Of a stretch of 64,000 nucleotides of DNA, positions 1-45,170 are shown piece after piece. A model generated the notes under the pieces. The model had not been told where the DNA came from, ran no database searches, and was given only the letters and a program-made list of their open reading frames with translations. Within the stretch, counting starts at the first letter, position 1. Each line of letters opens with the position of its first letter. The position numbers were made by a program, and so were the translations under genes. The DNA is from Trebouxia sp. TZW2008 (taxonomy: Eukaryota; Chlorophyta; Trebouxiophyceae; Trebouxiales; Trebouxiaceae): assembly GCA_002118135.1 (NCBI GenBank), contig BDIU01000203.1, positions 109,052 through 173,051 on the forward strand, read 5' to 3'.

Positions 1-3000
1 GTGTCAGCAGGTGCTACAACTGGCATCGCTCAAGGGGTGTACAAGAGCCTGAGTGGCATATCAGCAGTAGAGAAGCGTCTCAAGGATGCTTTGGAAGGGG
101 TATGTGTCTGCTCGAGAGATGCTCTCGCTGCTACCATCTCAGACACATTATGCTTATTTCATGCATTGCCATAGGCAAAGTGCAGTCGCTGCAGCCTGCT
201 AGATGGCCCCAACAATATATGCCGTTCAGAAAGACAGTGGCAACTTGTCTTCACTTTGTGTGCAGAACAATGTCACTACTGGCGCTCTCAGAGCCATAGT
301 GGCAATGGTGGAGTATCAGCAGGCAACACTTGACCTGGTTAAGGCTGCAGCAGAGGTCGGTGACACTGCTTCAAAGCATCCCATGCTCATTGCTGCAGCT
401 ACTCAACTGCTACTCAACAAAGGCAGTGTGACGTTGAGCTACACATCAACTGCTTTGTTGCTGACTGGGACTTGCAGCAGCATGCGTAGCCAACAACATG
501 CACAAGGTCAGATGACATGCAAGCCTTTGCATGCAAGTTGACGACTGCTGCTTGAGTCTACAGGCTGATGGTGCCGTCAACAAGAATGAATTGACCCTAC
601 AGCGCGCCAAAGTCAACAGCCTGAAGGGTAAGGTTGAGCGCTTGGTGGAAGCACTGGCACAGGAGCAAAGCTGCTCAGGCAAGGCTGGTGCCAACAAGCC
701 ACAGCATGATGCTGTGAGCAAGCAGGTAAACTCAGTCTTTCAGTTCTTGATTTGTCCGTCGTATGTGTGGGCAAGTGGCTGATAGGTTCAGCAATGCTGA
801 TGCTTTCATGTGCATGAACAGCATCAGACATCGGAGCAATGCAGGAACTGACAGCTTTTCTTGACAGCAATGCTCACTGCCAAATCTGCAGGTTTCCTGC
901 TGGGTGCGTGGTGTCAGACCTCATTGGGCGCCATCATCTTAGCAATGCTCCTCACTACCAGCTTGTGCATCACATTGGTGTCTATGCGAGCGCAAAGCGG
1001 CGCACCACAAAGGACCAGGCGCAGACTACATTGACACATTGTTCATTCAGGCCAAAACTGCTGTATATGCTGCAGGGGCATGTTGTAGAAGGGCAAGGCA
1101 TGGGCTCAACTGACGTTGCCCACTCACTGTGCTTTCGACCAAATTGCTGTTCATGTTGCAGGTGGGCAACATGTATGAGGCCAAGACATGCACTACACTG
1201 ACCGTGCTCTGTCCACATCATGTGCTTCAGCTCAAAATTCCTGTTATGTAGCAGATGAGCAAAATGTACAAGAGCAAGGCATCATCTACATTTACCGTGC
1301 TTTGTCCACTCACTGAGCTTGAGAGCAACACTGCTGTTTATGTTGCAGGTGGGCAGATTGTGCGAGGGCAAAGTTGGGCTACACTGATCTTTTGCCCACT
1401 CAGTATGCTCCTGCTGTGCACATTGCAGGTTGGCAAAAGTACTGAGGCAAGGCACGGGCTATGCTAACCTTCTGCCCACTCACTGTGCTTCAGAGCAACA
1501 CTGCTGTATATGTAGCAGTCGGCAACATGCATGAGGGCATGCTGACCTCAGAATCATTCTGCTTAGTCAGTGGACCACAGGCAATTAGTCAATTTGCTTC
1601 AGGCCAACACTGTAGTTATGTTGCAGGTGGCCAATTTGTATGAGGGCATGCTAGCCTCAGCTGGCGCACTGCCAGCCATTGAGGGTGCCAGGGCGGCACA
1701 GGAGTGTCAGCTGCAACAGGCAGTTGAGGCCCAGGCAGCCCTGCTACAAGCCCAGGTGTCTGCGACCCAGAACGCTGACAAGTGAGGCAGTCTCCTTGCG
1801 AAGTTTCCAAATTTGTCTGTTTCCTTTGTCTTATTTTGGCTGCACACAGCATAAATGTAAAATGTGTACTGCCTGGATATGCTTTGTGCCCACAAGTCTC
1901 TCTCCTGTGCTTTGAGCTGACAGATTCAATGGTGTGTCTGCAATGCCTCATTCGTGTGAGAGGCATGTTGAGAGCAAGTCAAAACTGAATCTCGCCAGCA
2001 ATTGCAACAGCAAGGTTGCGACTATCCTAAAACTGGTATGTATGTCCTCATTGAGGCCCACATGCTTGCTGAACTGACACCTTCCCTTTGGAAATCGTTG
2101 TGCTGTTATGCAAAAATCTAATTTTCTGCGCCAAAGCAGGCTCTGCTGACGTGTGTTCAGCACGTAACCTGTGTAGCTGTGATATGCTCTGCGTCATGGT
2201 GCTGTTGCATCTGCAGGGCTGACAGGAAAGCCCAATGGATCAGGGATGCCGCACAAAAGCTGGCTGCCAGCTCCCGGGCAAGGTGTGAGAGGCTGCAGAA
2301 GGACAAGCAGCAGCTAACCAAGGATCTGTACAGAAGCAATGGGATTCAAGTAGCCCATCTGTGCCAGCTGAAGGCAGTCAGTGCTGCCAAGGTCGCGTTG
2401 GCTGCAGACAAAGAGGATTTGCGCAATCTGCTAGAAGGGTACATTGTCAACAAGCGTTTTCATATGCAAGTGCAGCATATGCTGTTGATCATACACCTGT
2501 TTGTTTCATGTCGATGCCAAAGTGTGTTGTCACATGTTGTGCAAGAGTTTGTGGCATTGCATGAATGTCTACCAGCGTTGTTCAAATTTAATGCTCACGA
2601 TTGAGATGCTTGCACTACAGCTTGATTCAAAACAATGGCATCTTCATGTCAGGTGTCTGGCAACATTTGACGCATGTGCATGTCACCTCTCATACAATGA
2701 AACAATTGTGTAGAGCCTTCTTTGTCTTTCAGGCCCATCACTGGTGAATAGGCTGAGAAGGCCATACATCATTACTGTGGGTGGAATCACCAAGTCAGCT
2801 CGACATGAGTGCATTTTTCGACTCATCATACAATAAAACATTCCAGCTTGTGAAGCTTTCCACTGACGCCTTGCAGGGCAGGTAGTGATTTCAAGGCAGA
2901 GAAAGTTGAGCGGGAGGCTGCTGAGGAGACTGCTGGTGCCCGCCAGGCTGAGGTGACAAGCCTGGAGCAGCAGCTGGCCACCAGCCAGGCTGACCTGAAG

Positions 3001-6000: not shown

Positions 6001-9000
6001 GCTGATGCATATGCTGCGCTTTTGCTGAAGTTGACTTGTCAGGGGTTCTGTAGGATTGAGCACCAAGATGCATGTTGACTAACGTCATCAGTGTAAATGG
6101 GTGTGGCACTACTGCTGGGCATATGCATGAAGCCCAGTACTTGCTTAAAGGTGGAGCAAGTGAAAGCTCAGTGCGCTTATAGACATGCTTATAGACAAGG
6201 TACAAAATCCTGCCATCAAGAATTTCACAATCTTGCGTGACTTGCACAAACTTGACCCAGTCCAATATTTGTACTTTGCAGGACGTTCACAGGTCCCAGA
6301 ACACTTCCAGGCAGTGCCCAGGATTGCTGGCTTTGCGGAGCAGCTGTATATGGACACAGAGCGCATCCTGGGGAGTGGCAACACCGGTGATGTCTTTGCC
6401 GGCGGCAACTTGCACCAGCTGCTGCAAGGTCGTCCTCAATGGGCTGTCAAGGTATGTGCCGTTTGTACAGCTAACCTCCAAAATTTGCAAGTAGCCTTTT
6501 GCCCTGCTGGTGAAAAGTGAAAAGTGGGCAGTCAAGGTATGTACCATTTGTGTAGCTAGCCTCCAAGCTTTGTCAGTGGCATTTGGCAGGAGCAACTGCA
6601 AGGTCCACCTCAGTGGGCAGTCAAGGTAAGTGCCATTTGCATTGCTAGCCTCCAAATGTCGCAAGTGGGATTTGGCAGGAGCTCTTGCAAGGTCGGTCTC
6701 AGTGGGATGTCAAGGTACGCTTCATATGCAATGCATACCCGCATACTCTGCAAAACTTCATCTAAGTTCACTTTGCAAACTTCAGCTTCTGTAGCTTGGC
6801 TTGACCTTGACCAGCTTGCCTAAATGGGCAGTCAAGGTATGTGCCATTTGCATAGCTACCCTTCAAGCTTGGTAGCAGTCCCTTTACACCAAGCTTGACG
6901 TCCTGCAGCTGTCTGTCACCACTGCCCATGAGCTTGCATATCGTTTCGTCTCTGAGTTCTGACAAACTCTGAGTATTGCAATGATGCTGGTTGAAGCTTC
7001 CAAATATGCATGCAGCTCACATTCAACCCTCTGAACAGCTGTAGGACATGGGCTACGATCTACACTTTGGGCTTGGCATTCAGAACATTTTGGTGCGCTT
7101 TTGTATGTGTCTTGAACAGCGTCTCCTCACAAACAGCTCATGCAGCTCTCACACCTGCTCAAGCGTGCATCCAAATGGCTACCACTTCATGAACCTCTAT
7201 GTCTTCACAATCTTTGCATTAAGTTCTTCTTATTCAACTGCACTTACAGAGACCATATCATGCAGCAGTCACTCGAGACTTCGCTCAAGAAACCCATCAC
7301 TGTGCAGTCACGCACTGCATGTGAAGTGAACCAGTCTTTGTGTTGCAGGTGGTCACCCCCCCAGTGAATGAGGCAGATCGCATCGACAGGTATGATGTCG
7401 ACAAGGAGCTGGCAAGTCTGAGTCTGGTGGTTGGCCAGTCAAGACTGCTGCAGTGTCGTGGGTACAGCACAGGGTACGAGTTTCAGGAGGGACAAAGAAT
7501 GCTCAAGGGTTATATGGTGACAGAGTAAGCCCTTGCTGCAGTGTGCATGCTGATTTCTACTGTGCATAGTCCTAATGGTCTTGAAGGGCTACATGATGAC
7601 AGAGCAAGCTCCCTTTGTGTTGTACATGCCAATTGTCCCTGGTCACAGTGATGTTACAGATGTCACAGATCAATGCATTGGCATTGTTGCAGTGCAGGTG
7701 CTGATTGCTGCTAATGTTGAAAGCAATGCAGTCATCACAGAGTAGGCCACTGCTGCTGTGTACATAGGTGCTTCCAGTTACAGCTGTGTTGCAGTGACTG
7801 CAGAATCAGGCCTTGCTGCATTTTGCATGCTCTTGATTGGCTTCTCAGCTGTACTCAACATACCTGCAGCAGCATTATGTTACTGGCGAATCCACAAGAT
7901 TCACTTCCTTGACGTGCTCAGTCTTTATGAATGGCAATAGGCCTGTTGTCTGGACCTGCTGACACGCTGCATGGCTCAGCAGTTTCGCCTGTGGTGCAGC
8001 TATGCCTGCTCTGATCTGCTGCATGGCTGCAATACGAATGTCTGGCTGTAGTACTCATGCTTTGCTGCATTACTCAAGCGTGGCAGTGTTGTTGATGCAG
8101 CTTTCTGGGTCCATCTTTGACCAGGGCAGTACTGGACCTGGACAGGGGTGTGGTTAAAGTCAGCTCCAGGCGGCAGCGCATGTTGTGGGTGGCCTCGATG
8201 TTTCTGGTGGGCACCGCCTTCTCGCTGTTGCTTGATCTCTGTAGTGTGCATTTTGCAATCATGGACAGGGCCCTCTTGCTACTGATGTATTTGTGCAAGT
8301 GCCTGATCACACTTTCATGATGGCAATCATCAAGCTTAAGGCCTTTTCATCAGGTCTGTCTGATGGGTTGATCAGCCACTTGCCTGCCACACATTCTTTT
8401 GCATTCTTCTGCTGTCATGTAAAAGTCTGCGCTATGCATAACATAAGCAGCAGCAAATGATACAGCATTGTTGCCTTGCAGGCTGTCAGGGATTTGCACA
8501 AGCTGAGGCTTGTGCATCATGATGTCAAGCCAGACAACTTCTGTCTCCATTCAGATGCACATGGGGAGGTCAGCATGAGCCTGATAGATATGGGACTGTT
8601 GGAAGATGTGGGGGGTAAGTTTTGGTCCATCTCATTTGCATTGCCAAACAGGAGCTGTGATCTGACAGTGCCTTCAGCCGGAAGTCAAGAGCTTGCAAGT
8701 TGCATGCAATGACTTCCAATCCGCAATCTGCTTTGCTGATTCTGTGAGTGTGCTGTCATGAGTCAAGGCGCACCAAGCACTGTCTACAGGGCTGCCAGCA
8801 TCAACATCAAATTATGACAACTCAGCACGCGACTATGGTGCTTCATATTTAGGGTTTTAGGGTTTAGGTTGTCCTGCAAGCATGCCTTGATCGATCATTG
8901 CTTGCATTGCATGCGCCCACAGAAGCCAACCTACAACCTGAGGCAGCTTGCCGGAATCAGTCTTGCCACATTGTAGGCATGACACCCTTGGGAAAATCGC

Positions 9001-9885: not shown

Positions 9886-10060
9886 ACTGCAACATTTGTC
9901 TGGTGGTTGGTAGGGTTAAGTGTTGATGTGCGGCACCCTGTCCGTCTAGTTACTGGTCAACCCTCCCCTTGTTTCGTGAGACTCCACAACATGGTAATCT
10001 TGATTGCTGTTCATACAAAGTAGCAAAGACTTTCTGTGCTTGATGCAGCATATATATATA

Positions 10061-10950
10061 TATTTACAACACTGACCACTGACCATTTGCAGTTACTAAG
10101 GTTTTGCAGAGATACGCCATGGTTATGTCATGGGGTTTGTCTTACTAAGCAGTGAGAGCATGACTAAAAGCGTGCAGCTCCCCAGGCTAGGTTTTAACTA
10201 TTTGAAAGCGGGGGGAATCTATCCAAGTCAAACCCCTACACACACTGCTTTCCATTGCTTATTTACCTAATTTTAATCAGATTATAATTGGTAGTACTTA
10301 GTGTAGTAGAAGTACCGCCCAGCTCCTTGGCTCCCCAGCTCCCCAAGAAAAGCTAAGAGAATCCTGAATAACTCAGAGTTCTGAGTTTCAGAAGGGAGTT
10401 CGTGATGAGCTGGGGAGCTTAGTAAAACCCTGTAGAATCGGGGTCGCACACACACACACGCCGCCGCTTGCGGCGCTGCCCTTGTACACAACCGTTACTC
10501 TGACGTAATACAGTAGAATTCAAACTTTTGAGTGTTTGCACGCAGAGCTCGTGACAGCTGTACGTAGTGGCTACAGAGGTTGTATACAGAGCGCGCGAAC
10601 CTCAGGCGCTGACGCTGCAGTGTTGTGGCGCTGATCCTACAGAGGCTGCACGCAGTTTCTGCAGAAGTTGGGCCAGAAAACCTGCTGAAATCCCTAGGAT
10701 TCTGATAGGATTCTAGATGACATAACCTTGATCTTTTCTGCACGCAGACATGTGGAGTTCTGATTTCTTTCAGATTTTGTCTGTTTTCTCTGTAGCTACA
10801 GTAAGGATTGCTGATGTGCAACTCATTATCGCAGTCCTCACCAACATCTTCTCGTTAGCCACTATTTCAATTTGTGTTTTCTCTGTGTTGTGTAATGAGT
10901 ACAGCTTACGAGAACCTGAAAAGCATCTGGAACTGACGATAAGGCAATTA
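10061..10950 (+). repeat. Left terminal inverted repeat
   Basis: Pairs with 13301-14214 in reverse. Landmarks shared by both arms are CTCCCCAGCTCCCCAAGAAAA, an (AC)n run near 10447, TGACGTAATACA, GGGCCAGAAAACCTGCTG and the start of a small membrane-protein ORF. In this arm the ORF start reads ATT instead of ATG (near 10809), so this copy is probably not translated from that position. Confidence 0.85.
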
Positions 10951-11782: not shown

Positions 11783-11871
11783 AGGCATCAACATCTGATC
11801 AACGGTGTGGGCCGGAATTTGAACTGTGTCTGCAAACTTCACAGCGCAACCTGTCTTTTAGCCTTTCTAAG

Positions 11872-13210: not shown

Positions 13211-13268
13211 TTTGGTACCGGTGATCAGATCAGTAAGCTGGCTCTCCAAATTGATCAACTCTTCCTCG

Positions 13269-15060: not shown

Positions 15061-18000
15061 ATGGCGGATTTCGGTAAGCTAAGTCGTCAGCACGTCCACA
15101 TGCTATAGCGCCGACATGTGGCGCCTCATACGAGTGTGCGTTCCGCAGTGTCTGAGCACATGGGTCAAGGGAAAGCAATGCCCCACCAGGGAGTTGTGCA
15201 AAACACTGCACGCAATGCAGACAAATCAGCTGCAGACCAATCTGATTTGGAAGCAGCAACAGCAAGTCAGCACTCGAAGCAGAAAGCTGACTTAAAATCA
15301 GGCACAGACTTCAGAAACGTGGATGTCAAGAAGTTGACAAGGGCTCAAAGGGGCGAGCTTGTTGATCAAGTGCTGAACGTAAGGCTCTGTCCGTCACTTC
15401 TCAAAACCCAGCAAGTTCCTTGCCATGTTGGTCATTTTCACTTTGTCCATGTGCCTTAATCAGCAATTTTTTCAGCTCGGCATTGCCAGCTTGGCGTGCT
15501 GTTCAAGCATCGCCTTGGCAAGACAGACAAAAATATATTTGGCACTTCTGCATATGGCGTATTGCTTGGATTTTTGTGTACACGCATCTGGGCCTGCTTG
15601 TTGTCTGATCACCAGGCGCATGTTGCACTTTGCATACTCTGTGAATACCTCACATTCGTGCATCGTCATTTTGTGAACAGCACCTGACACAGAAAGCAAT
15701 GCATTGCTGTGGTTGCTGCAGAGCAGGGATGCCGACACAGAGCCCTTCCTCACTGCAATGAAGAATCGCATGGACAGGTATTACAGCCTTAGATGCTTGC
15801 AGCAATGGCCTCATGAATGTGCGCACTTGCAATGTTTTCTGCTGTGGTCAAATTTATGCATTGCCTGTATGCATTCAGCTTGACTCAGTATGTACGTCGC
15901 AGCTTGAGTCAGCTAGCCTGAATGTCATGTGACAGCATGCAATCAGGTTAACAAAAATCAGCCATCGTGTTGCCAGTTGCAGCATTCACGCAACATTCCT
16001 GTAAGTTGGACAATGTGTCTCTAGGTAGTCTGAGGTCAAAGCATGCAGAGTGTAGCTTGTTCATGAATCAAACCCAGCTGGTGCTCCAGACAGCGCATTT
16101 GCATGCATGCAAGCTCATGCGTGTAAGATCATGCATGCAAGCTCATACGTGGAAGCTCATGCAGGCTTATTCATGCACAAAGTTGATGCATGCAAGCTTA
16201 TGCATGCAAAAGTTCGTCATGTTCATTGTCCTGCTGCAGAGTTGGCATTGAGCTGGCGAGTGTACAAGTACGGATGGAGAATCTGAAGGTGGAGGCAGAC
16301 ATTGCAGTGGGCGCAAGAGGCAACCCAACTGTCACAAACACAGTGCTCAACATGGCAGAGGTACAACACAGGTCTCCTCAAAGCATGCATGACATGAAGC
16401 GCACACAGCATATATTGAGCAGCTATCACCTGGAGGATCAGTACCACTTTGCGTGAAATGCACTTTGTACCTGATTGACTTGGTTCACACCGTTGCTATC
16501 ACATCTCAATAAAACCTATAGGGTAGAGCCTTTTGCTAACCTCTTTTGGTCACACTTTTCAATCACACTTTTTGGTTTCACAATTTGGTGACACCTGTCG
16601 GGTGGTGCAGGCCTTTCTGTGCGAGACTTACCTGATGAAGAGCACCACACGATTCTTCACCTTTAGCTGCAGTTGGCCTAAAGGTTTTGGCCCGTATGAT
16701 TCAAGCACAAACAATGCCTGAGTACTTATTTGCACACCTGGCTTTCAAGAACTTTCTGCGTTGCAGGGTTTTCTGCGCAAGACTCGCCTGATGAAGAGCG
16801 CCACACAGCGCTTCACCATCCTGGACAACATGAGCAGCATCCTGTACCCAGGCAGGCTCACACTGCTGCTGGGCCCTCCAGGAGCCGGAAAGACCACTCT
16901 GCTGAACGCCCTATCTGGCCGCCTGCACAACAGCAGCCATGTCGATGTAAGCACATCTTTGCCAGACTAGGTTGTCCATACATCAACACGCAGGGAGAAA
17001 GCATGACACTGCTGCTGGCCCATCAGGAGCTGGAAAGACCACTCTTCTGAATGCCCTCTCTGGCCGCCTGCACAATAGCAGCCATGTTGACTAGAGGCTG
17101 CAGCCATCATAGCATGCATCATGCTTTGTTGTTTTGCACTGCATTGTCTTGAAAAGAGCAGTCGACACTGGTGCTGTGCCCCCCAGGGGTTGAAAAGACC
17201 AATCTGCTGGATGCCCTATCTGGCCGCCTGCACAACAGCAGCCACGTTGATGTAAGCACATGTTGCCAGACTGGAGCGTGCATTGTTTGAGGAGTTGGCA
17301 CATAAATATGCAGAAAGGCAGCATGACATTGCTCTTAGCATTGGGCCCCCAGAAACTGGAGCCACCACCCTGCTGAACGCCCTCTCTGGCCGCCTGCACA
17401 ACAGCAGCCATGTTGATGTAAGGTTGCAGCCATTTCTGCCAAGTCAGGCTAGTATTCATTTGCTGGACTTCTGGCTGCTGTTGATAGCTCAGTACTGTGT
17501 CTTTGAGCTTAGCTGCTTTGACTTTTACCACTAGGGCGCTGCTGAACGCGCTCTCTGGCAGCTCATACAACAGCAGCGTTGTTAACATCAGGCTGCAGCC
17601 CTGATCCGTCATAGAAATCAGTGTAGTATGCAAACACTGAACCTGGCTTCTGCTGGTTGCTTTGTTTGCACTGCACTGTGTATCGCACTCTGTTCGAATA
17701 CACTATGCCTTATTTTGTCGCCTGCACAACAGCAGCACAACAGTCTTCAGCTATCACATTTTGGCTGAGCTGAGAGGTCTGTTGCGACAGTGTATCAGTG
17801 TTTGTCTTTTTACAGATCACCGGCAACATCACCTACAACGGCAAGGGCTTTGACCAGTTCCGTGCAGCGCACACAGCAGCTTATGTGGACCAGAATGACC
17901 TACATCAGCCAGAGTTGAGCGTACGGGAGACCTTTGACTTTGCCGCCAGATGTCAGGGCGTGGGGCACAAGGCAGATGAGCTAACAGCCCTACTGCAGCG

Positions 18001-30000: not shown

Positions 30001-33000
30001 CCTCCCCTCCTTCTTCTTGTTGTTGGCATGTATTTGCCCCACTGTCCCAATTGTTATCATGTGTGTCGTTCTGTTGGCAGCCAGGGCTGTGTTGCATCGT
30101 GAGACCACTGCAGGCATGTACTCCTTCTGGCCCTGGACCCTTGCTTTGGTCAGCCTCCCCCCCTTCTTGTTGTTGGACTTTGTCTTGCTGTTGTTGTTGT
30201 TGTTGTTTCTGTGGTTTGCCTTCAGCACTTGTTGGCACGTACTCCTTCTGGCCCTGGACCCTTGCCCTGGTCAGCCTTCTCCTGTCGTGCACCTTACAGT
30301 GTTTCGTTCATTGCTTCAATTGTAAGTTATCCAAATATCAAAGTCGCAGGAGCACTGTCTATTATTGCCCATGCTTCCGCCCTGGCAGCACATGCCCTTC
30401 GGTCTTGCTGCTGCCATTATGACTGGCTTATGACTTGAGGAAGACACCATCTGGATTGTTTTGCAGCAGTGCGTATACATCCTGTACCTTACTGTGCAGA
30501 GTTTATGTCAGTGCGGCTGATCATGCCTGATGTATGACATGCTTTGCCCTTCTCTGCAGGGATGTGTACAGATTGCATACACATTGGGCACAGTTTTTGT
30601 GTGTGCAGCTGTTTTGCTGTGCCACATGCGTGACACCACCTTTCTTTGACTGCAGGGGTGTGTAGAGATCCTGTACATCACTGTGCAGAGTATCATGTTT
30701 GTGCTGGTTGTCTATTGGATGTGCTGGTTCCAAGTTGATGCAGGTATGCCATGCAGCAGCTTGGTAACATATCTGTGTCGGGAGCGTGAGACATGAAAAT
30801 TGCGTTGAAAAATTTAGGTGAAATACTAAAAAGTGAGACCTCCATTTTCACATCCTGATTGCTCTGTCGGTGCTCCAGTCTTGCGTGTCCTCTTGACGCT
30901 CCTCCTGTCAAGCTCAAGACAACATTGGCTGTGATATGGCACGTATGACAAGAGCAGCTTTTTATAAGCGTACTGACTTTGCCATATGCATTGCAGCATG
31001 TTTGCCATTCAATTGCTTGAGCTTGTTTTCTCTTGCAACGTGTGCGTGATACAGCGTCAGCTTACAGGGCAAAAGATCTATGAGCAAGACAAGTTGTGAT
31101 GCAATCACAAACATTGCTACAACAGACTCCAGCCTGATGTTGTGCTGTGTGAGAGTTGTATTTTTGTGATCCAATCGCTGAGCTGCTTCTTTGCATGCAG
31201 GCAAATTCTTCTGGTTTCTGCTGTACACCTTTGTAACTCTAGTGTACTTCACATTCTTTGGTAAGTCAAGCTTGCTCTTGTCAGTTCAGGGCCTTATCTG
31301 CATTCTTTTGCTTACCTGGCAAAAGTCTGAAACTTGTACACAGTGGTCAAAGCAGCAAGGTCCACTACTGTGCAAGCACCATCTTCTGCATGGTGATCAG
31401 TGTCACCTGCATGCGTGTCACATGAAAGGCATGTAGCTCCTTTTTCATGATCATTGTCATGTGGCATGTACTCAATGGTGTTGAAGCAGCCACAAGCTTG
31501 CCATGTACTGATGTGAGAGTGGAAACAGTGATACTTTATATCAGTGCATCTGTACTGGTTCAGCATGTGCACAGACTAGGTTGCTCAGAAGCAGTTGCTT
31601 GGTGACTAAGAGTACCTAGCAAGGCCTTTGAGCCCATCTAGCATGAGCTGCCATGTCTGTATGTATGTGTGAATGTGCAGAAAGCTGTTGCTATGCTGTA
31701 GAAGCAGCTGAAAAAGGATGCTGTGTGTTGACCGCTGCAGGCATGATTGCTGTTGCATTGACCCCCAACCTCAAGATTGCAGCAGTCTGTACCTCTTACA
31801 TGGTGTCCCTCTTCCATCTGTTTGCTGGCTTTGTCATCACGCAACCCAACATGCCTGGCTGGTGGTGAGTCTTCTTCTCTTCTTACAAGACTGCTGTGCA
31901 TGCTTGATTGCAGTCTATGTCCTCGGCTGTAGGTTCCCCTGCATCTTGCCTTGAGACGGGTTTGGTTAGCTTTTTGCGCTTGACAGCACATATGCTGCTG
32001 CTAAACTCTCATCAGATTTCCCTGCTGGATTCTCACCAAATGCCTTCCGGCCTCAGGCAACAGAACGTCCATGCACATCGGCTAATGTTCCAGATCACAA
32101 TTCAGCACGCTAAGCAATGCCAAAGTCAATGCGTATGAGTCAAGAACATGTGCCCTTCTGGCTGCAATGGGACCAGAAACACTGAATCAGTTCAGTGGGC
32201 ATGACTTGAAATGAGGAATGTGCCTCTCTGACTTCTGCAGGGTGTGGATTCCATACCTGAATCCCATCTTCTGGACAGTGTACGGCCTGATTGAGAGTCA
32301 GGTGGACAACCTAGACACCCTGGTCATGCTCACCACACGACAGCAGGTTCCCGCCTATCAGGCAGTGGAGATGCTGTTTGGCTACCAGTAAGTGGCATCA
32401 ATTTTGTTTTTATAATTGTAGATGTTGTATTTATGAGCATCATTCATAATAGTTGTAGACCTGGTCGTGCTTACCACATGGCAGCAAGTGCCAGCCTATC
32501 AGGCAGTGGAGATGCTGTTTGGTCACCAGTAAGTGGCACCAATAGTGTTGTTAATTTGATTGTTGTGTTGATCATTAGGGTGACTCTGCTGATGCTCACT
32601 ACTTTGCAGCAGGTTCCTGCCCATCAGGGCGTGCAGATTTTCTGGCTGCAAGTAAGTGGCACTAGTAGTAATGCTGAGGCGTGATGGTAGTGATCATAAA
32701 ACATGACAACCTGGATGCCCTGGTCATGCCTACCACACGACAGCAGGTTCCCGCCTTTCAGGCTGTGGAGATGCTGTTTGGCTACCAGTAAGTGGTACCG
32801 ACTGCATGTTGTTGTGATTGTTGCGTTGATCATATGGCAAGCCTGGTCATGCTCACCACACGACAGCAGGTTCCCGCCTATCAGGCAGTCGAGATGCTGT
32901 TTGGCTACCAGTAAGTGGCACCAACATTGTTTTGATGACTGTGATTGTTGTTGTTGTTATTAGTAATCATCAACCTGGTCAAGCTCACCACACAGCAGCA

Positions 33001-33499
33001 AGTGCCAGCCGACCAGGCAGTTGAGATGCTGTTTGGCTACCAGTAAGTTCCTTTCGAACTGCTGTGGCACAGGTCGCAGACAGTGTCACAACTTGTCCCT
33101 TTGCTTGCTATTTGGAGTTCCTGTTACGCTTCTGCTTGGCAGCAGCAGCAGCAGCACCCGCGTTATGAAATGTAGTTTGAGCCTTGCTTCTACGCTTGTC
33201 ATCCAGCAGGCTGATAGCTGTGTACCTGCTGTGCCACTTCCAGAAGAAACTGCTTCACTCTTGAGACATGTGACATGTGAGTGAGGGCTGTGCTTGCAAT
33301 GTCGTGCACTGCATGGTTTTTTGACATCAGTGACATGCTGTGTCAAGATGTCGCAGTGACAGTAGGGAGTTGACAATCTATGTGGTGGTGCAGTCGCGGC
33401 ATGCTGGGCTGGATTGTGCTTATTCTGTTGGTGTGGGTTGCTATCTGCTGGTTATCCACGTACATGGCACTCAATAAGCTGAACTTCCTGAAGAGATGA
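15061..33499 (+). CDS. Full-size PDR/ABCG-family ABC transporter
   Basis: Exports or imports small lipophilic compounds across a membrane using ATP; substrate unknown. About 27 exons: 15061-15073 and 15149-15378 (least certain), 15722-15777, 16240-16360, 16767-16946, 17816-18121, 18673-18748, 19243-19440, 19760-19887, 21051-21222, 21999-22234, 22787-22953, 23397-23582, 23937-24001, 24186-24541, 24922-25067, 25353-25612, 26173-26369, 26800-26953, 27507-27712, 28135-28268, 29197-29415, 29815-29995, 30656-30743, 31201-31260, 31741-31864, 32241-32387, 33394-33499. All phases agree, giving ~1,503 aa, the usual PDR length. NBD1: Walker [10 protein letters not shown] (~176), signature VSGGQRKR, Walker B TMFLDE. 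Then a membrane half, a linker rich in Ser/Arg, and NBD2: GVTGAGKTT (~947), [18 protein letters not shown]. The second membrane half ends at TGA 33497. The intron at 18749 starts with GC. Many introns hold exon-end repeats. Confidence 0.95.
16098..16212. repeat. Degenerate minisatellite of ATGCATGCAAGCTC-like units
   Basis: About eight imperfect units of 11-15 bp built from TGCATGCAAGCT/ATGCAGGCT occur just before exon 16240. Alternating purine-pyrimidine ATGCATGC blocks make it locally palindromic. Confidence 0.7.
16970..17595 (+). repeat. Tandem copies of the NBD1 Walker A exon end (after exon 16946)
   Basis: Four decayed copies of the 3' part of exon 16767-16946 lie at 17005-17092, 17170-17255, 17330-17418 and 17535-17590, with a trace at 17720. 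The first keeps [18 protein letters not shown], the second has [11 protein letters not shown], the third [11 protein letters not shown] and the fourth [13 protein letters not shown]. The second and third keep a GTAAG donor. Confidence 0.9.
18292..18339. repeat. Perfect 19-bp inverted repeat in an intron
   Basis: Arms TGTCACATGTCAGTTACAG (18292-18310) and its exact complement (18321-18339) flank a 10-nt loop. Part of the arm (CACATGTCA) recurs at about 18342. Likely hairpin; function unknown. Confidence 0.85.
19125..19205 (+). repeat. Decayed copy of an exon start (before exon 19243)
   Basis: Words such as GATGAGATCAGCATAGGCCTG repeat the Walker B region of the following exon (GATGAGATCAGCACAGGGCT) in decayed form, with TTGGCCTAGCCAAATAAGG matching GTGGGTCCAGCCAAGACAATG. 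Confidence 0.7.
19575..19655 (+). repeat. Decayed copy of an exon end (after exon 19440)
   Basis: The sequence from CCCTACTCATTGCTCGATG to GTCAGAGGGTGAG repeats the end of exon 19243-19440 ([16 protein letters not shown]...LSEG) and its donor region. Confidence 0.75.
20600..21050 (+). repeat. Three decayed copies of an acceptor/exon start (before exon 21051)
   Basis: Copies at about 20625-20725, 20775-20875 and 20910-21005 match the exon that encodes [21 protein letters not shown]. The first is still open over [12 protein letters not shown] and keeps the acceptor word GATGTGATGCAG. The others have stops and indels. Confidence 0.85.
21640..21965 (+). repeat. Two decayed copies of an exon start (before exon 21999)
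   Basis: Copies at 21655-21790 and 21835-21965 match the exon starting [19 protein letters not shown]. Both keep words such as CATGAGTTCACACT and AAGCGCACCATGATT. The second keeps a CTCTGCAG acceptor but has a TAG in its first codons. Confidence 0.85.
22986..23055 (+). repeat. (GCTGT)14 pentanucleotide microsatellite
   Basis: Fourteen perfect GCTGT units start about 30 bp after the donor of exon 22787-22953. The same unit recurs at 26513-26572 in another intron of this gene. Confidence 0.95.
23599..23684 (+). repeat. Two direct 42-bp repeats in an intron
   Basis: Units at 23599-23640 and 23641-23682 both begin CACTCACTCATGTTTCACCA and are nearly identical, so the duplication is recent. They start 16 bp after the donor at 23583. 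Confidence 0.9.
25664..25845 (+). repeat. Copy of the NBD2 Walker A exon end with its donor (after exon 25612)
   Basis: A 175-bp copy of the end of exon 25353-25612, including the donor. It still reads YLELLLGIS and then, after a one-base shift, [17 protein letters not shown] before GTGAGT. The frame breaks mean it cannot replace the true exon as it stands. Confidence 0.9.
26421..26575 (+). repeat. GCTGT pentanucleotide tracts flanking an exon-end copy
   Basis: A short interrupted GCTGT tract (26421-26455), then a decayed copy of the end of exon 26173-26369 (GACACCGCAGAAGC...GGGCAGGTGCTG, 26468-26500), then about 12 perfect units (26513-26572). Confidence 0.9.
26970..27215 (+). repeat. Three copies of the NBD2 Walker B exon end (after exon 26953)
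   Basis: Copies near 26985-27032, 27065-27130 and 27155-27215 match the exon end encoding [18 protein letters not shown] and the donor (GAGCCGACTTCAGGTCAG, GAGCCCACCTCAGATTAG). All are decayed. Confidence 0.85.
27370..27470 (+). repeat. Copy of an exon start (before exon 27507)
   Basis: GATGCAAGAGCAGCAGCCAT...ATTGTCAACACAGGCAGGACC repeats the first ~80 bp of the D-loop exon 27507-27712 ([21 protein letters not shown]). It diverges after GTTGTGTCTAACCA. Confidence 0.85.
28360..28840 (+). repeat. Four tandem copies of an exon end and donor (after exon 28268)
   Basis: The exon end encoding [15 protein letters not shown], its donor and about 90 bp of intron recur at 28363-28480, 28500-28620, 28660-28740 and 28795-28840. 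The intron part (CTATGAACTGTATGGCTGTG, TTTGATGGAGACTGTAAC) is nearly identical between copies, so the repeat unit is about 125 bp and straddles the splice site. Several copies keep CCAGGTAAG or CCAGGTGA. Confidence 0.92.
30075..30292 (+). repeat. Two copies of an exon end (after exon 29995)
   Basis: Copies at 30078-30165 and 30228-30285 match [14 protein letters not shown] and its donor (CCTTGCCCTGGTCAGCCT). A GTTGTTGTT run follows the first copy. Confidence 0.88.
30460..30612 (+). repeat. Two copies of an exon start (before exon 30656)
   Basis: CAGTGCGTATACATCCTGTA (30466) and CAGGGATGTGTACAGATTGC (30557) repeat the acceptor and start of exon 30656-30743 ([10 protein letters not shown]). 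Confidence 0.78.
32455..33050 (+). repeat. Five tandem copies of an exon end and donor (after exon 32387)
   Basis: Copies at 32460-32537, 32586-32660, 32704-32796, 32842-32921 and 32976-33049 match the end of exon 32241-32387 ([19 protein letters not shown]), each followed by a GTAAGT donor. The fourth copy is identical in its amino-acid reading from LVMLTT to GYQ. The unit is about 130 bp including intron sequence (GTAAGTGGCACC). Six equivalent donors therefore precede the last exon at 33394. Confidence 0.93.
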
Positions 33500-34317: not shown

Positions 34318-37300
34318 CTACTCCTCAATGCTGTGCCCATTTGCATGAGTATCCGCAAGAGGGATGACTCTAATGTTGCCATTCCCCTGAGTGACTTGAC
34401 CAATGATAGCAGCTTCATGGTAGCCTGCCTTGTGCAGGCTTTGTGTACATGCCTCTGCTTTGTCATGTGGCAGGGAGGCCAACAGCCCACCCCCTGCAGC
34501 AGCGCACAAGCTCATGTATCATATCAAGCATGGAACACCTATGCAACTACAGTCGCATTGGCCTTGAAGTTGACTCTACTGGCTTGCATGCAACAGGCAT
34601 TGCCTACATCTTGGGCATGTCATACCTAGTAATATGATGCTGCTTGCTGACAGCAATTCTCAGCATGCTGCAAAACCCAAGAGCGTCAAAGCGCCTGACG
34701 ACTGTGCTGCACAGGCTCAAACGTGACAATCAAAAAATGTTCACAGCAGCTTTGCCGTCAATGCTACTTGCAAAGGCTTGGCTGCATGATATGCCTCCCC
34801 TGAACAGGCAATCCGCACAGATACGCAAGCAGAATGGGGTCAGATACTAACTTCTGCCTGAGACATTGAGTACTTAGCAGATCAGCATGCAGCCTGAGCT
34901 AATTGGTAGAGGTAGTGAAGATCAACATGAACTAGCAGAAGAAAAGCAGACACTCGTTTGCTTCATAGCAGCGAGCAAATAATGACCTGTCTGAGGATCT
35001 ACTAGGAGTGGCCAAGAGCTGTGCTGAATGGCCTCTTCAGCGTTTGAAACAGCTGCAGAAGCATTGGCGTTTTGGCTGTGTATGCTGCTGAGCACGCCTG
35101 CTGCCACACACTCAGCTGCCCCAGCAAGCATAGGAACAGCGGAAACATCCACTTCTGCAGAAACCTGCATGGTAGCAACAATCAGTGTCGCATGTGTGAC
35201 AAAATGAGCAATGTCCTGATTGCATGGCAGGACGCCAGATGCTGTTTTGTCTTTGCACACGACATGAAAGCGCTGAAATGCCCCACGCTGCTCTACCAAG
35301 GATTACAGACAAGTGCTCTCAGGCGAAAAAGAAATACATCTAAGCTAGTCAAGCTCATTTGTGAGGGTCAACTCAATAAGGCAAGATTTTGGATGTGAAA
35401 ATGCGATGACTCACTGAAGCTTTCAGTGTGTGTAAACCAGAAGACCCACTTGTGAGGGTCGAGTCATCTCCACAAGGTGGCCCAAAAGGCCAAAGCCCGT
35501 GACATCGGTGCAGGCTGTGGCTCCATGCTGCTGCAGCAGGCTGGCAGCTGCTGCACTGCTCTGCTGCATGCTGTTAAGCGCACCTGCCACAAAACACTCG
35601 CATACTGAAATGTGCATGCATAGTTCAATCAGCCTGGCCGCTCAGTGAGACTTGCTCAACTGCCCAGGGTTGCTACATCAGGCTGCCACATGCTCAGCTT
35701 TCCAGGTGAGGCATAATGCAAAAAGAAGCAAGAGGAAGAGGTGGCAGACAAAGAATCAGCAGAAGAAGATGGAGAGTGTACCTGAAATCCAGCAGCCCTT
35801 AGCCTTGCGCCTCATTGCAGCTGCCATGATGGTACCTGTGCCTAGGGGCTTTGTCAGGATAATGGCCTGCCCTGCCTGCATCCCGCCCTTGCTCATCAAA
35901 GTGCCCTCTTTGGCGGTGCCAGTCACACTGAACCCTGCATGGACAGCGCTCTTGCATGAGTCACAGCTCACATCAGCAAAATGTTTGGGGGCAGACAAGC
36001 AAAGCAGTCAGCAGGGAGCTTAGGGGCGATGAGGGTCTTCAGGTCAAGTGCCTGCCCCGCCTGCATTCTTGTCCTGCGCATCAAACTGCCCTCCTTGGCA
36101 GTTCCAGTTGACCAAACCCTGCATTGCAACGATCTTGCATGAATCTCAGCTCGCGCCATGAGGGTTTTGGGGGGCAGAAAGGCAAAGCAGTCAGCAGGGA
36201 GGGGTTTGAGGGGCAACAAGGGTGTTGAGGTCAAGAGCCTGCCCTGCCTACGTTCCGCCCTTAATCATCACGGTACCCTCCTTGGCATTGCCAGTCACAC
36301 TGAAACCTGCATGCAGCGTTAAATGGTGAGTCGCAGCTTGCGTCAGGGGTGAAGGAGGGTGATTGCAGCCGTAAGGGGGGGAGGTAGGGGGCTCAAGGGG
36401 GGGGTTCAGGTCAAGGGCCTGCGCTGTCTGCAGCCCGCCCTTGCTCATCAAAGCGCCCTCCTTTGCAATTCAAGTCACGCTGACCCCTGCATGCCATGCC
36501 GAACATGATCGACAGCTCACGCACGATGGGACTTTTCAGATTTGCAACATTAGCTTGTTGGCTTGTACCCTTGCTGAATGAAGTGGCCTCATTGGCTGTG
36601 CCAGTCACACTAAACCCTGCATGCTACGCGAGGCATGACATGCAGCTGATGCCAGCGGGGGGAGAGGGGGCAGGGGTGTGGGGTCCAGGGGTCAGTCACC
36701 AGGGGGAAGCTTGTCACCTCTCTTGTAACGTGCAAACATTAGTACAGATAAGCATGCTGGAGTCATGCAACATTAACAAGCAACAAAGGTCAGGACGACC
36801 AAGTCACCTCAGAACTCAGAACTCTCCTTGACCTTGACAGCTGTGGCTGCCCTCAAATGTACAATCCGGCCTCATGTATGTCAGCTCAGAGTACACAGCA
36901 GCGCTGATCCAGCGTCCATGTATGTTGTCACAGACTTCTTCACAACTCAACACTGACTCACGTCTAGTGAGTACACAACAGCACTGATCTACGGACAATT
37001 CTTGGTATGGCGGTCACAGGTGTACTGGGCTCAGGATTATGAACAGATCCTTTACGTACATGGACTATCAAACGTTTGAAGCTATACTTGCAGCTTTGAC
37101 CCAAGCTATACTTGTAGCTTGAAGTTGGGCAATCAAACCTGGAGTGTCAGGGTGCAATGCAGCAGCAATATTTCCGGCCCATGTCTCAAATACTGCCATC
37201 CTGTCAATGTGTCAAATTTGTTTTATGGACTCCCAGCTGAGGAGTCGGACACTAGGCTGCTCAAGGTCATGTTGTTTGGTCAGGTCAAAGGTTTGAACCC

Positions 37301-40300
37301 TCCAGGTCAGTCTAGGAAGATCTGGAATGACATTGCTTTGTCTGACTTGCAAAAGTTCAAAGTCAGACGGCTCTACAAAGACGCTCAGAACAAGCCTGCC
37401 TGGCGAGACAGGACTTGGGCCACACACACCTAGCACACGTGCTGAAATGTGTCATTGTGGCTTTTTTCATTGTTAATGCAGCGGAATGCAGGACTGACCT
37501 AAGGAGGCTTCTTGTCCTTCACAGGTATGACCGCCAACCAAAGCACAGCCCGCCTCTTCAAGCACTGGCAAGGCCCCTGCCAGCATCTGGAACAACTCTT
37601 CTTCCATCTTGTCGTCCAGGCCAAAGGGCACTACGGCCAGGGCTAGGGCTGTTTGAGCTTCAGCCCCCATTGCATGACAATCCTGCAAGAAGGAGGGAGT
37701 GATGAGTCAGCACCTGGAACAACTGTTCTTCTTCTTCTTTGCTGTCCAGGCCAAAGGGCACTACAGCCAGGGCTAGGGCTGTTTGAGCCTGAGCACCCCT
37801 GGCATGACAGTCCTGTAAGAGGCAGAAGAAGAGTGTATTTGGTCAGGATTCATCTGGAACAACTCTTCTTCTATCTTGCTTTCCAAGCTAAAGGGCACTG
37901 CGGTTAGGGCTAGAGCTGGTTGAGCCTGAGCTCCCATTGCATGGCAGTCCTGTAGAAAGACAGCAGAGTGTAATCAATCAGCATCTGAAACATATCTTCT
38001 TCTATTTGTGCCAATCAACACTACAGCCAAAGCTAGGGCAATTTCAGCCCCAACTGCATGGCAAAGCCGAGAGAAGAAGAAGAAAAAAGAACAGTCAGCA
38101 AAAGAACAGTCACCATCTTGAACAATTCCTCTTCTTCTCTGCTGTTCAGACCAAAGAGCATCATGACCAGGGGTAAGGCTGTTTGAGCGTGAGCCGCTAT
38201 TGCATGACAGTCCTGTCAGAGGAAGGAGACGAAAGTGATTAGTTAGGATCAGTCTGAAAGCTCTTCTACTTCTTTGGGGATTGGGTCATAGTGCACAACA
38301 GCCAGGGCTAGGGCTGTTTGAGCCTCAAACAATCAGCAGTCAAATTGCATGGCAGTCCTGCTAAGGGACGAAGAAGGGATGAATTGACAGCCAGACAATA
38401 TGTTTGCTTGCCAATGTGTGGGTTTCTGTGATTGTCATCTTGAAACACAAAACAGTACTCTGAATGCGCAAAGCGCTCTTGCAACAACCATGCAGCAGCA
38501 GTGGCACCAGAGTTGAGATCCATTGCTGCAATGAGCATAATCTTGAAGGTGTCTCAAGAATTCTTGACACGAAACCAAGAAGAGGAAGCAACCTACCCCA
38601 AGAGCATGATTGGCAGCAATGGCACCAAACACATATGGATCATCCACAAATGATCTGAAGAAATCCACAGTTTGCACCATCACATGGCCTGCGAGGGGCG
38701 GCCTGATGACAGCTGCATCATCAGGGGCATCTAAACCCACCAAGATGTCGCTGTTGCCTGAAGCTTTCTTGGCTGTAGGCAACCTTTGCAAGACCCTGCT
38801 CAAGATGCTGGCTCCCACCTGCCAGCACAGTTCAACACAAGCATTCAAATTCACTATGCATGGAGACCATGCACAGTTCTCAAGCCTGTAAAGAAAAGGT
38901 TGACTCTGATGATGACAGCTGCACCATCAGGGGGATCTCAACCCACCAAGATCTTGCTGTTACCTGAAGCTTCCTTGGCTGTAGGCAGCCGCTGTAAGAC
39001 TCTGCTCAAGATGCTGGCTCCAACCTGCGCGCCAAGCAGCAAAGCATTGGTTTATAGACAGAGTGACTGTGACAGGGTGTTGGCCACAGGGCAGCATGTT
39101 CAGGCACCTCTGCTGTCACTTTGTAGGGAGTGCACAAATGCAGACTCATGTTCCTGCAGATCTCAGGGGCAGATGTCCTCACCCTTTGGTGCTGCTTGCT
39201 ATCACCGCTCCCATGCTGCCGCTTTCATTGTTGATTGACACTAGTGACATTCAGCTGACAACATCAGAGGGAGGCTGGTACAGAATTGTCAAATGTGTGT
39301 CACACAATGTCACAGTTCAGTATGCATCCAGATAGATTTAGAGCATATGCTCTGTGAAGTTGTGCAAAAACTGCACAGCTTTTGCATCAATGACGCCCAA
39401 TCCTCCAGGTTTGAAGACATATTGAATGTCCACAGCTGGGAGCGCAAACAAAGCTAATGAGTTGAGAACGCCAAGCAGCACAGACCTTGCCTCCGCAGCC
39501 GCCACACCTCATTTTGGCAGCTGACAAAGCCGCCAGCGCCTCAGGACCTGCTGCAGCAGCCACACCTTGCTCTTCTGCCTCAGTGCTGGGCTTGGCTGAT
39601 GCAGCCATCTTGTCAGCCATTGCATCCAGGCCTGTGCTGTACATGCTCATGAATTTGCGGTCTATGTAGTCCTTCACCGGCCACAGCCATGCACCCTGTC
39701 AAAACAATAATACTGCTTGTAGAGAAGTCACTGATGCTGCAGCTTCAGATGCAACTTTTGCTGTTTGCAGTCACGTAGTCCTCCATGGGCCACAGCCATG
39801 CGCCATGCATGAACAATGTTATTTTGTGTCAAGACGTCACTGCTGCCTGTTCTGTACATGCTCATGAAGTTACAGTCCATGTAAACATTCACTGGCCACA
39901 GCCATGCACCCTGTAGCAACAATGATGCCTGTTGTAAAGATTTTATTGCTGCTTTTGGTGTAGGTAGTCTTCCACATGCCACAGCCATGCACCTTGTACA
40001 AACAATGATATTTTGTGTAAAGGCGTCACTGGTGACATGCTTGTGAATTTGCGGTCAATGTAGGCTTTCACTAGCCACAGCCATGCACCCTGTACACTCA
40101 TGACTCATCACCATCACAGGCATCATGTACACCATGAGGCGCACGAGACTGACTGCTGACATTAGAACGAGATTTTGTAACAGTGGCTGCAAACATGTCT
40201 TGCTTCGCTCATTACATGACGTATGGGGCTGCATGACTCAGCAGCAGCCTTCAGCAAAGAAGGGCATACCCCGCTGCACTCCCGCTCACTTATACTCAAC

Positions 40301-43300
40301 AATCAGTGTAGACATGTGAACCTCATGACGAATGTTGCAGTCACAGTATGATTACAATCACAGCAGTTGTGACAACACTTGTATGAGCTTGCAGCTGCGA
40401 GAAACATTGAATGGACACGAGCAGACATAGAGACATATTGTTTTGATGCAGCAGTCAATCATTACAATGGCACAGAGACTGACCTCAAGGCAGAGCCAGC
40501 CTTTTGTGGCAACAGCGTATTTGGATCCACTGGTGATCAGACTCAGCCATGACGTCTGTGGCTTGAAGGCTTGCAGCTCCTGCCCTTGCAAGAATCTGCC
40601 GCAAAACATTAGCACTGTCATGATTATTGCAATTACAGTATAAATTTTGCAGTTTTGGGCAGCCATGCTTCGTCACAGCTACAAAACAATGAATGTTGTG
40701 GAAAATACCAGCACATTTGAGTTGTTTTTGCTCTGGTATTGAACTTGCTGATGGCACCACGCAATGGCACGACTCTTTTTTCATCAGTCTGTATCAAGGA
40801 TGAGGATGAGCATAAACAGTGGAGGTTGCCACTCATTGTCAACCAATGACAATGTCTCAAAACATCTGTCGACAAAACACAGATGTCTGCGCAAGTGTGC
40901 ACAACCTTCTGATATCTTCAGTGAGTGGGGGGCCTTGACGCACAGCAAAGACCCCAGCTTTTGGTCTTGGACAAACAATAGAGGGGGCCACATCACAACG
41001 AATGAATATAGCAACTGCAACAAGGGCTGCACTGGTGACAAAACATAAATGTCTGTGCATGTGTGCATTACCTTCTGATGTTATCAGTGAGGGGTGGCCC
41101 CTGGCGCACGGCAAAGACCCCAGTTTTGGGTCGGGGATGAACAGTAGAGGTGGCCACATCTCCACAGGCAAAGATGTTGGGCGGACCATCTGCTGCTTGC
41201 AGGAACTCATTGATGCTCAGAAACCCTAAGTCATCTGCATGACACATATATGTGTGTCCGCGGCAAGCGTTGCGTCAGCATTGTGTAGGGCTCCTTGCAC
41301 TACATACAACATGTTGGGCGCACCACAAACTATTCAAAAGTCACGGATGCTCAACTAAGGGCCATCAGCTGGTGGCAGGAAGGCTTTGATGCTCAGGGGT
41401 CCCAAGTCATCTGCACAGCATACATGTGTGTCTCACGGCGCAGACATTGTCAGCAACAATGCAAGATACATGAGCTGCAAGAGAACAAGATTGCTTTGGG
41501 CAATATTGTAAGGAGAGCCTGGGAGGGGGAGAAAACGGGGTGGCCGGAGAGGAGAGGGGCCTTACCTGCTTGCAGACCGGTGTGGGATGGCCAGGGGGGT
41601 GCACTGGCTAGGGTGCACCACAGGCAGTCTTCAAACTTATGATACGGCACTTTGTGGTCCAGGTCAGCAGATGTACAGTATGATGGGTGTCTAAGTGTCA
41701 CGTGACTCAGATAAAAGTACGTGACTGCTTCTCTTTAGTGCTGGACTACAGGGAGACAGTAACCTGTTTGTAGGCCGGTTTGGGAGATCCAAGGTGATGC
41801 GCTGGCTTGTGTGCACCACAGGCACTCATCAAAGCTCTGCTGACTGCCTCCAGCCTTAAGGGAGTCAGATGAGCATCGCAAACATCAAGTAAGGCTGCTT
41901 AGACGGGCGCTGGATTGCAGAGAGGCAGCAGGGGATGCATTTACCTGTTTGCAGGTCACTTTGGGAGAGCCAGGGTGGTGCGCTAGCCTGTGTGCACCAC
42001 ACGCACTCATCAAACTTCTACCAACAACAACACCTGTCCCATTCAACAGAAGAACAATCCAAACGGCATCTCAAAGATCAAGTGAGACTGCTTACAGGAA
42101 AAAGTTCACCTGTTTGTAAGCCAGTCTGGGAAAGCCATGGGGGTGCGCTGGCTTGTGTGCACCACAGGCACTCATCAAAGCTCTGCTCACTGCCATCAGC
42201 CAAAAGCAGGCGGCCCGGCTGCACCTCCTTGACTCCCACCCCCTCCCGCACCTCTACCCCCTCTTCCTGTACACACACCGCCCTCAGCCAAAGTGACACT
42301 GGTCAGCAGCATCAGCAGCAGCAGAACTCAGCAGGTCTGAGGAACTGGCATGGGTGGCTGCTACAGGCTGTCCATTTGGCTCAAGCAGCTCGCAACATTG
42401 GTATCGTGCTTGCAGCACAGCATGGTCCACAAAGCGCTCCTCTGGCAGCAGCTTCAGGTTTAACAGCAGCAGCGGCGGCAGCAACAGCAGCAGCAGCGGC
42501 GGCAGCAATGGCAGCAGCAGCGACGGCAGCAGCAGCAACAGCAGCAGCAGCAGCAGCAGCAGACCTTGGCCAGTCTAAGGAACTTGCGGCGGGCAGCAGG
42601 TGTGTGCCCTTGCAGCAAGGGGCCTTGGCTGAGCAGGCTCACGCTGCACTTGGCAGTATCTGCCTTGCCACTTGCCTGCCTTTCCACCTTGAGGCGGTGA
42701 TTGAGAGCCATGCTGATCTCGACCCCTCCTGCTCCCCCGCCCACCACGCACACCTGCATTAATGAGCCTGCGCAACTCATTGATGGTCATGGATGAAAAG
42801 AACCGATGGTCAAGGGACATGTGTTCTGATTCATTGAACTTGTGCAAGTTGATGGACATGTAGCATGATCACCACAACACACAACAAGGTTGGAGCAGTT
42901 CATTCTGCTGTGACTGAAGCATACAATGTCATGTGGCAATGGCGCTGGTACAAAAAGATGAGTAAGGGACAATGGCTTGTGGCAATCTGCCTGTGGCAAG
43001 GAGCTTCTCAAGCATCAAGCAAACAAATCAATGCTGTACCTACCTGTAAAGGCTTCTCACTGATGCAGGCATGCGCATATAACTTGTTGAATCTGTCCAC
43101 AAACCTGCACACAGCAATGCAGCTCAAGCCGCGCCACGACACCACTGATTCCAACAACAGAAACAGTTCAGCATGACTTGTCAAACTCAGCTGGCTTGTG
43201 ACGCATGCTTATCAGGACGACGTACTGAATGTACTTACTTGCGCACTTAATGCAATGGCAGAGTCCATTATGCATCAATGTAAGCCAGGTGACGACGCAA

Positions 43301-45170: not shown

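Follow-up and report, generated by a model that had tools for sequence, protein, structure and literature searches.

Copies of exon edges in the introns of the green alga Trebouxia and local duplication as their probable source

Why do so many introns of this locus contain imperfect copies of the edge of a neighbouring exon, and is the underlying duplication centred on splice junctions? The question is raised by a stretch of 64,000 nucleotides (hereafter, the window) from Trebouxia sp. TZW2008, a green alga of a genus known as a partner in lichens. An earlier, sequence-only reading of the window had described arrays of tandem exon-edge copies in about two dozen introns of a kinase gene, an ABCG gene and a SelD-fusion gene, and had attributed them to recurrent duplication centred on the exon-intron boundary, which would lengthen introns and multiply splice sites.

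The source genome measures 68.5 Mb in 527 contigs. Two genes of the window could be delineated by homology, with proteins of Trebouxia strains being the top-scoring ones in both cases:

15148-33496, plus strand: PDR-type ABCG transporter gene, hosting many exon-edge arrays; mapped exon by exon by tblastn of the Trebouxia sp. C0004 protein P0001
34318-44818, minus strand: SelD (selenide, water dikinase) gene with an N-terminal oxidoreductase domain; mapped by tblastn of P0121-P0124

P0001 is 75% identical over the whole query, and P0121 is 83% identical over 97% of the query; the SelD homologues are listed with Pfam domains PF07992, PF00586 and PF02769. Further introns were predicted with a self-trained gene finder in a 300.8-kb sample, which comprised the window, nine 20-kb samples (R1-R9) from contigs picked by number and pieces of ten chaperonin-bearing contigs. 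This yielded 69 genes with 545 introns, 532 of them with both exons, including 454 of at least 90 bp. The splice signals of the predicted introns are sensible (TGCAG/G and CAG/GTRWGY, the slash marking the splice site). The gene finder mistook decayed copies for exons, for instance, at 17162-17251 and 17322-17417 in the ABCG gene. A homologue search with one gene of sample R7 gave no match at E <= 1e-60. Positions 42600-64000 of the window contain several predicted genes, among them a long gene at 53.2-60.8 kb with much coiled-coil-like sequence, as well as short peptides at 46994-47133, 50548-50736 and 51454-51593 (two predicted minus-strand genes) that resemble helicase-associated repeats.

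When the window was compared with itself, 50 direct-repeat matches had offsets no larger than 600 bp and four lay further apart; one 20-bp block shuffle of the window produced none. All 50 near matches are located between 1.0 and 42.6 kb, and the part at 42.6-64 kb is nearly devoid of local repeats of this kind (0/50 near matches; two short tandem arrays). The six arrays named in the sequence-only reading are all present. Four of these (32455-33050, 41565-42020, 36030-36630 and 37700-38370) are backed by homology to Trebouxia proteins; a fifth (28360-28840) lies between exons consecutive in P0001, with its copies visible in the DNA alignment only, and the sixth (1020-1660) was checked with our own gene model only. 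The estimate of about two dozen affected introns agrees with the 22 of 113 window introns in which the gene model places copies. Both donor-side and acceptor-side arrays occur, as was claimed, in the ABCG and SelD genes, where the exons are fixed by the related Trebouxia proteins. The copies are not always tandem in the strict sense: in many cases, they are spaced rather than head-to-tail. Overall, the observation of exon-edge copies inside introns is real.

The following arrays were mapped in the ABCG gene:

16767-17420, plus strand: donor side; the end of exon 16767-16946 (P0001 143-208) is copied at 17017-17091, 17165-17257 and 17334-17420
20639-21224, plus strand: acceptor side; 20639-20728 (P0001 439-468) copies the start of exon 21051-21224 (439-497)
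21679-22240, plus strand: acceptor side; copies 21679-21765 (P0001 502-530) and 21802-21921 (485-524), then exon 21999-22234 (497-577)
25353-25855, plus strand: donor side; the end of exon 25353-25612 is copied around 25675-25803 (self-comparison and tblastn)
27378-27712, plus strand: acceptor side; 27378-27449 (P0001 1102-1125) copies the start of exon 27507-27712 (1100-1168)
28135-28920, plus strand: donor side; exon end ...VYKESDLA at 28268 and further GT-carrying copies (alignment of copies)
29815-30282, plus strand: donor side; exon ending near 29990, its end peptide copied up to 30282 (self-comparison matches)
32241-33059, plus strand: donor side; exon 32241-32388 and five more copies of its end with /gtaagt, next exon 33395-33496 (alignment and tblastn)

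The three copies of the first array correspond to P0001 residues 179-203, 175-205 and 176-204, and the next exon runs from 17810. The end of exon 25353-25612 and its copy are 82% identical over 189 bp at an offset of 223. Exons 28129-28269 and 29177-29416, which flank the array at 28360-28840, are consecutive in P0001, and the alignment of P0003 stops at 29995 and restarts at 30656, on either side of the array at 29815-30282. In the last array, P0001 residue 1486 ends at about 32388 and residue 1487 starts at 33395, with the five exon-end copies in the intron between them; tblastn lists two of the five (P0001 1458-1486), and the others come from the DNA alignment. In the aligned copies at 32319-33059 and 28187-28919, the exon end is followed by GT. 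Introns of the ABCG gene also contain two TGCTG pentanucleotide arrays (22970-23055 and 26513-26572), the second of which is preceded by a decayed exon-like stretch.

Six introns of the SelD gene carry copies, two on the donor side and four on the acceptor side, as judged by homology to P0121-P0124:

41546-42269, minus strand: donor side; the end of exon 42102-42269 (P0121 305-360) is copied at 41946-42014, 41765-41848 and 41546-41635
40875-41247, minus strand: donor side; the end of exon 41072-41247 is copied at 40875-41009 (P0121 378-422)
39456-40101, minus strand: acceptor side; 40036-40101 and 39845-39922 (P0121 446-467 and 446-471) copy the start of exon 39456-39698 (449-530)
38597-39048, minus strand: acceptor side; copy 38911-39033 (P0121 518-558) before exon 38597-38821 (520-594)
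37491-38385, minus strand: acceptor side; 37672-37818, 37851-37955 and 38111-38212 copy the start of exon 37491-37688 (P0121 and self-comparison)
35771-36668, minus strand: acceptor side; 36040-36108, 36227-36307 and 36404-36487 copy the start of exon 35771-35935 (P0121 and self-comparison)

Two copies of the end of exon 42102-42269 correspond to P0121 residues 330-357 and 335-364, and the copy at 41946-42014 was detected with P0123 (247-268) and P0124 (250-272). Exon 41072-41247 is followed in the gene by exon 40484-40597 (P0121 412-449). The copy at 38911-39033 is 85% identical to exon 38597-38821 over 142 bp at an offset of 206. For the array at 37491-38385, the copies match P0121 residues 593-640, 593-627 and 595-628 (exon, 593-658), and for that at 35771-36668, residues 660-682, 656-682 and 656-683 (exon, 656-710). 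A CAG-rich 24-bp tandem repeat is present at 42464-42562, between two exons of the SelD fusion. Two plus-strand arrays, one of them in the kinase gene, are defined by the gene model only:

6282-6873, plus strand: kinase gene, donor side; exon end ...QLLQGRPQWAVK and decayed copies
1026-1781, plus strand: acceptor side; decayed copies of ttgcag/GTGGGCAA before exon 1627-1781

Such copies recur across the sampled genome. In the 300.8-kb sample, 42 of 397 exon ends match the following intron and 53 of 403 exon starts match the preceding one, as opposed to ~0.3% of swapped exons used as a control. The far ends of the exons match in 7/288 and 9/291 cases, and exon middles in 8/186 and 11/196. Blocks crossing the junction reach a score of at least 20 on 105 of 741 sides, the top score of 295 swapped donor-type tests being 20. 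The gene model assigns a copy to 51 of the 312 introns in R1-R9, to 22 of the 113 window introns and to 14 of the 107 introns in the chaperonin pieces. Furthermore, a Pfam scan of the whole genome uncovered an HSP70 gene (contig C150) in which HMM positions 131-205, 131-168 and 132-167 lie side by side. From the sample, the phenomenon presumably extends to the genome at large. As had been proposed, duplication has occurred repeatedly, extends across exon-intron boundaries on the donor as well as the acceptor side and increases the number of splice-site sequences. The proposed lengthening of introns is supported as well: the median length is 447 bp for introns with a copy (n=87) and 310.5 bp for those without (n=322), but longer introns also offer more room for finding copies. 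Local repeats make up 6.9% of predicted intron bases in the chaperonin loci (L019-L048) versus 14.0% in R1-R9, and in sample R4 (L007-L008) local repeats account for 30% of the bases versus 6-18% in the other eight.

The density of the copies was assessed by a BLAST search in which every predicted exon was compared with the gene that contains it. Non-self targets of at least 80% identity, which include some internal protein repeats, correspond to 9.0% of exonic bases for R1-R9, 12.5% for the window and 2.5% for the chaperonin pieces, and to 5.0%, 8.3% and 0.75%, respectively, when restricted to targets outside predicted exons; the control search of exons against other genes gave 0.000%. In PMC9013439, an exonerate search with annotated exons gave ~2% for human, 0.08% for fly and 0.06% for worm, and almost 15% for human UTR exons. 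Because the methods differ (BLAST with predicted exons here, exonerate with annotated exons there), only the order of magnitude is comparable. The Trebouxia copies are unusually dense, and introns are growing through local duplication on an unusual scale.

The copies lie on the same strand as their source and close to it, as expected of local duplication: of the 226 direct runs of exact 16-mer repeats within 3 kb, 224 fall within 1 kb, with 15 inverted runs, and there are no direct runs at 3-6 kb and three at 6-9 kb. An assembly error, caused by unresolved haplotypes or misjoined reads, is hardly credible, given that most copies differ by 10-40% and that the pattern repeats on many contigs, in the chaperonin genes and in HSP70. 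The numerous affected introns might bring to mind introners (mobile elements that make introns) or some other repeat family inserted beside exons. However, no more than three of the 89 units have a match elsewhere in the 300.8-kb sample (one is a microsatellite and one a 21-bp match), and the arrays copy their own exon, which leaves this scenario next to no probability. Nor do the copies appear to be fragments of mRNA or cDNA reinserted into introns. Although 22 of 43 pairs have less than 15 bp of alignable intron sequence, as such fragments might, genomic blocks cross the boundary in 20/36 donor and 20/36 acceptor matches, whereas queries made of spliced exons extend over the exon-exon junction in only 3/40, so that this origin is exceedingly improbable. 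The copies arose at the DNA level.

The arrangement of the copies is not always that of simple head-to-tail tandems. In 34 of the 89 clusters, the homologous stretch is shorter than 0.75 of the spacing, although multi-copy arrays do run through. Among pairs with at least 76% identity, this is the case for 21 of 32, compared to 5-25% in head-to-tail simulations, and simple tandem duplication leaves this share unexplained. The spacer matches a flank in only 4 of the 21 spaced pairs. These pairs favour either copying of a nearby segment together with a spacer or heavy later turnover. Because many copies are spaced, repair synthesis with template switching is suggested as a source, besides slippage or unequal exchange. 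We also considered a preferred unit length near that of one nucleosome and dropped it, because the offsets are broad and detection favours longer units.

If the copies were working alternative or mutually exclusive exon ends, maintained by selection, they should retain the marks of coding sequence. In 57 edge-copy pairs, the first, second and third codon positions show 184, 161 and 280 mismatches, respectively, out of ~1033 each (0.178, 0.156 and 0.271). In the 43 pairs with at least eight codons, there are 172 synonymous and 272 non-synonymous changes (0.387 synonymous) and nine stops in 732 codons, compared to ~0.39 synonymous and ~12 stops expected, by our own arithmetic, for a free copy diverging from a constrained exon. 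Similarly, 28 of 39 copies retain GT or AG, against a neutral expectation of 0.69, with no signal of selection on these sites, and selection for keeping or losing decoy splice sites was rejected on the same counts. Furthermore, each of four ABCG motifs tested is single, where found, in P0001-P0004. A few pairs, by contrast, differ mostly by synonymous changes (for instance, 6:0 at window position 38772), and the spread among pairs exceeds that of one ratio (p = 0.002), which may reflect a few used exons or a gene model that took the wrong copy for the functional one. Taken together, the pooled copies decay as unconstrained DNA and look like inert leftovers, and it is very unlikely that, as a class, they are functional exon ends.

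Is the duplication, then, centred on splice junctions? By the gene model, 25 of the 89 clusters are of clean junction types, compared to 11.9 expected by random shift, and 34 are coding in both copies with a junction (25.7 expected); six are intron-only (15.4 expected), five intergenic (10.4) and none on the improper side of the junction (4.8), whereas the other 19 come close to their expected number (20.3). When even duplication followed by neutral decay was simulated with the same detection, the outcome was 45% junction, 12% whole-exon, 30% intron-only and 13% intergenic clusters, so that intron-only and intergenic arrays are fewer than simulated; ascertainment as the sole cause of the intron-only shortage was rejected, as the simulation fell short of the observed shortage. 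However, the gene model misfiles arrays, because it calls some decayed copies exons. As an example, the 'whole exon' array at local positions 5203-5608 of contig C431 is really intron-only, being flanked by HMM-supported exons that are consecutive in the HMM. For this reason, we relied on probe tests within introns and on homology-checked genes, in which 40-bp probes were always searched away from the junction into the intron.

At the strict threshold, the match rate of intron probes is flat, at 0.022-0.044 over 0-200 bp from the junction; at the loose threshold, it declines from ~0.09 to 0.06 over the same distance, but simulated even duplication declines too. The duplication rate is thus nearly even over the first 200 bp of introns. 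Exon-edge probes (-60 to -20, the last straddling the junction) match at 0.067-0.088 (strict) and 0.107-0.148 (loose). In the homology-checked set of 67 introns (33 chaperonin, 22 ABCG and 12 SelD, the latter 34 coming from a window picked for showing arrays), the ratio of exon-edge to intron matches is 2.60 at the strict threshold (95% interval 1.71-4.13) and 1.59 at the loose one (1.11-2.23), compared to 1.21-1.39 and 1.09-1.34, respectively, under simulated even duplication. For the chaperonin genes taken by themselves, the ratio is ~1.1 (loose) and 1.75 (strict; 7/80 versus 14/278, small numbers), and chaperonin exon probes more than 80 bp from the edge have no match (0/83). Across all sequences, probes deep in predicted exons match as often as those in introns (101/905 and 1111/8929), which is unlike a purge and which we tentatively put down to decayed copies called exons together with repetitive proteins. 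Probes in predicted intergenic DNA match in 58/904, 71/1212 and 93/773 cases by distance from genes. The alignments, inspected by eye, end at positions scattered over the intron side, and a sharp stop of the copies at the junction was accordingly rejected.

A genuine preference of duplication for exon-intron junctions, for instance, through repair of breaks linked to co-transcriptional splicing, would fit the strict exon-edge excess and the few intron-only arrays. However, the strict rate is flat along introns, the loose interval contains the simulated 1.34, the chaperonin genes alone show little excess, in small numbers, and local repeats occur in predicted intergenic DNA as well; we therefore regard such a preference as unlikely. 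The junction-centred process of the sequence-only reading is not supported: duplications devoid of any exon edge exist, and GT and AG are kept at the neutral rate. A junction-centred mechanism is not required and is only weakly indicated, and even duplication, purging and slow decay account for most of the pattern. Nevertheless, exon edges in the homology-checked genes still exceed the even model by a factor of up to about two. Loss of intron copies through deletion was considered as a conceivable cause of this remainder, but is not claimed here. Speculatively, and with low probability, the lineage might possess, besides the even background, a form of repair or replication with a preference for copying the exon-intron boundaries of transcribed genes into the intron next to them; introns would then grow outward from their splice sites.

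The explanation that we favour, with a probability of roughly two in three, is intense and roughly even short local duplication, the junction-spanning products of which are tolerated and stay visible. Short segments, mostly with ~60-250 bp from original to copy, would be duplicated locally, in the same orientation, at a high rate and genome-wide. Duplications inside exons would be removed by selection, whereas one spanning a single exon edge would be tolerated, since the original edge (the first donor or the last acceptor) is still available for splicing and is presumably the edge that the spliceosome uses in vivo; the surplus copy would turn into intron. The copy would then decay unconstrained while the true exon edge stays conserved, and therefore a pair involving an exon edge should remain recognisable for longer than an intron-only pair; this longer recognisability would make the arrays look splice-junction-centred.

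Intron growth and the source of spare splice sites are usually inferred from rare events, but about one intron in six in R1-R9 (51/312, by the gene model) still reveals its source. Given that proteins of several Trebouxia strains are in the databases and that the introns show their source, the rate, size and fate of junction-spanning duplications should be measurable between strains. The results also carry a warning for annotators of such algal genomes: because the gene finder took such copies for exons, repeated peptides in predicted proteins of these algae may be false. Among the matches listed in the literature, the titles and beginnings of abstracts contain no description of exon-edge copies in Trebouxia introns, and neither do the available passages of the Coccomyxa, Asterochloris and lichen-alga genome papers.

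Short local 'doublets', which lie on the same strand, close together and often with a spacer, were reportedly described by Thomas et al. in 2004 in mammal, plant and worm genomes; unlike the doublets, the Trebouxia copies are prominent in introns and reach exon edges. Gao and Lynch are said to have described internal (intragenic) gene duplication in 2009. As in that process, gene parts including exon-intron boundaries are duplicated in place and splice sites are multiplied, but in Trebouxia it is mostly exon edges that persist, at high density, as non-coding relics within introns, and we do not claim new introns. The work of Gao and Lynch is cited in PMC4974935 and PMC3443670. Tandem exon duplications and mutually exclusive exons, as presented in PMC9013439 and PMC6071210, similarly place exon-like copies in nearby introns of one gene; in Trebouxia, what is copied is mostly an exon edge and not a whole exon, and the pooled copies are free of coding constraint. 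Finally, in the potato RdRp gene, as described in PMC4974935, a duplicated boundary likewise provides splice sites, with most signals taken from the existing intron/exon structure; in that case a new intron arises, whereas the Trebouxia copies lie within introns whose flanking exons directly follow one another in homologous proteins.
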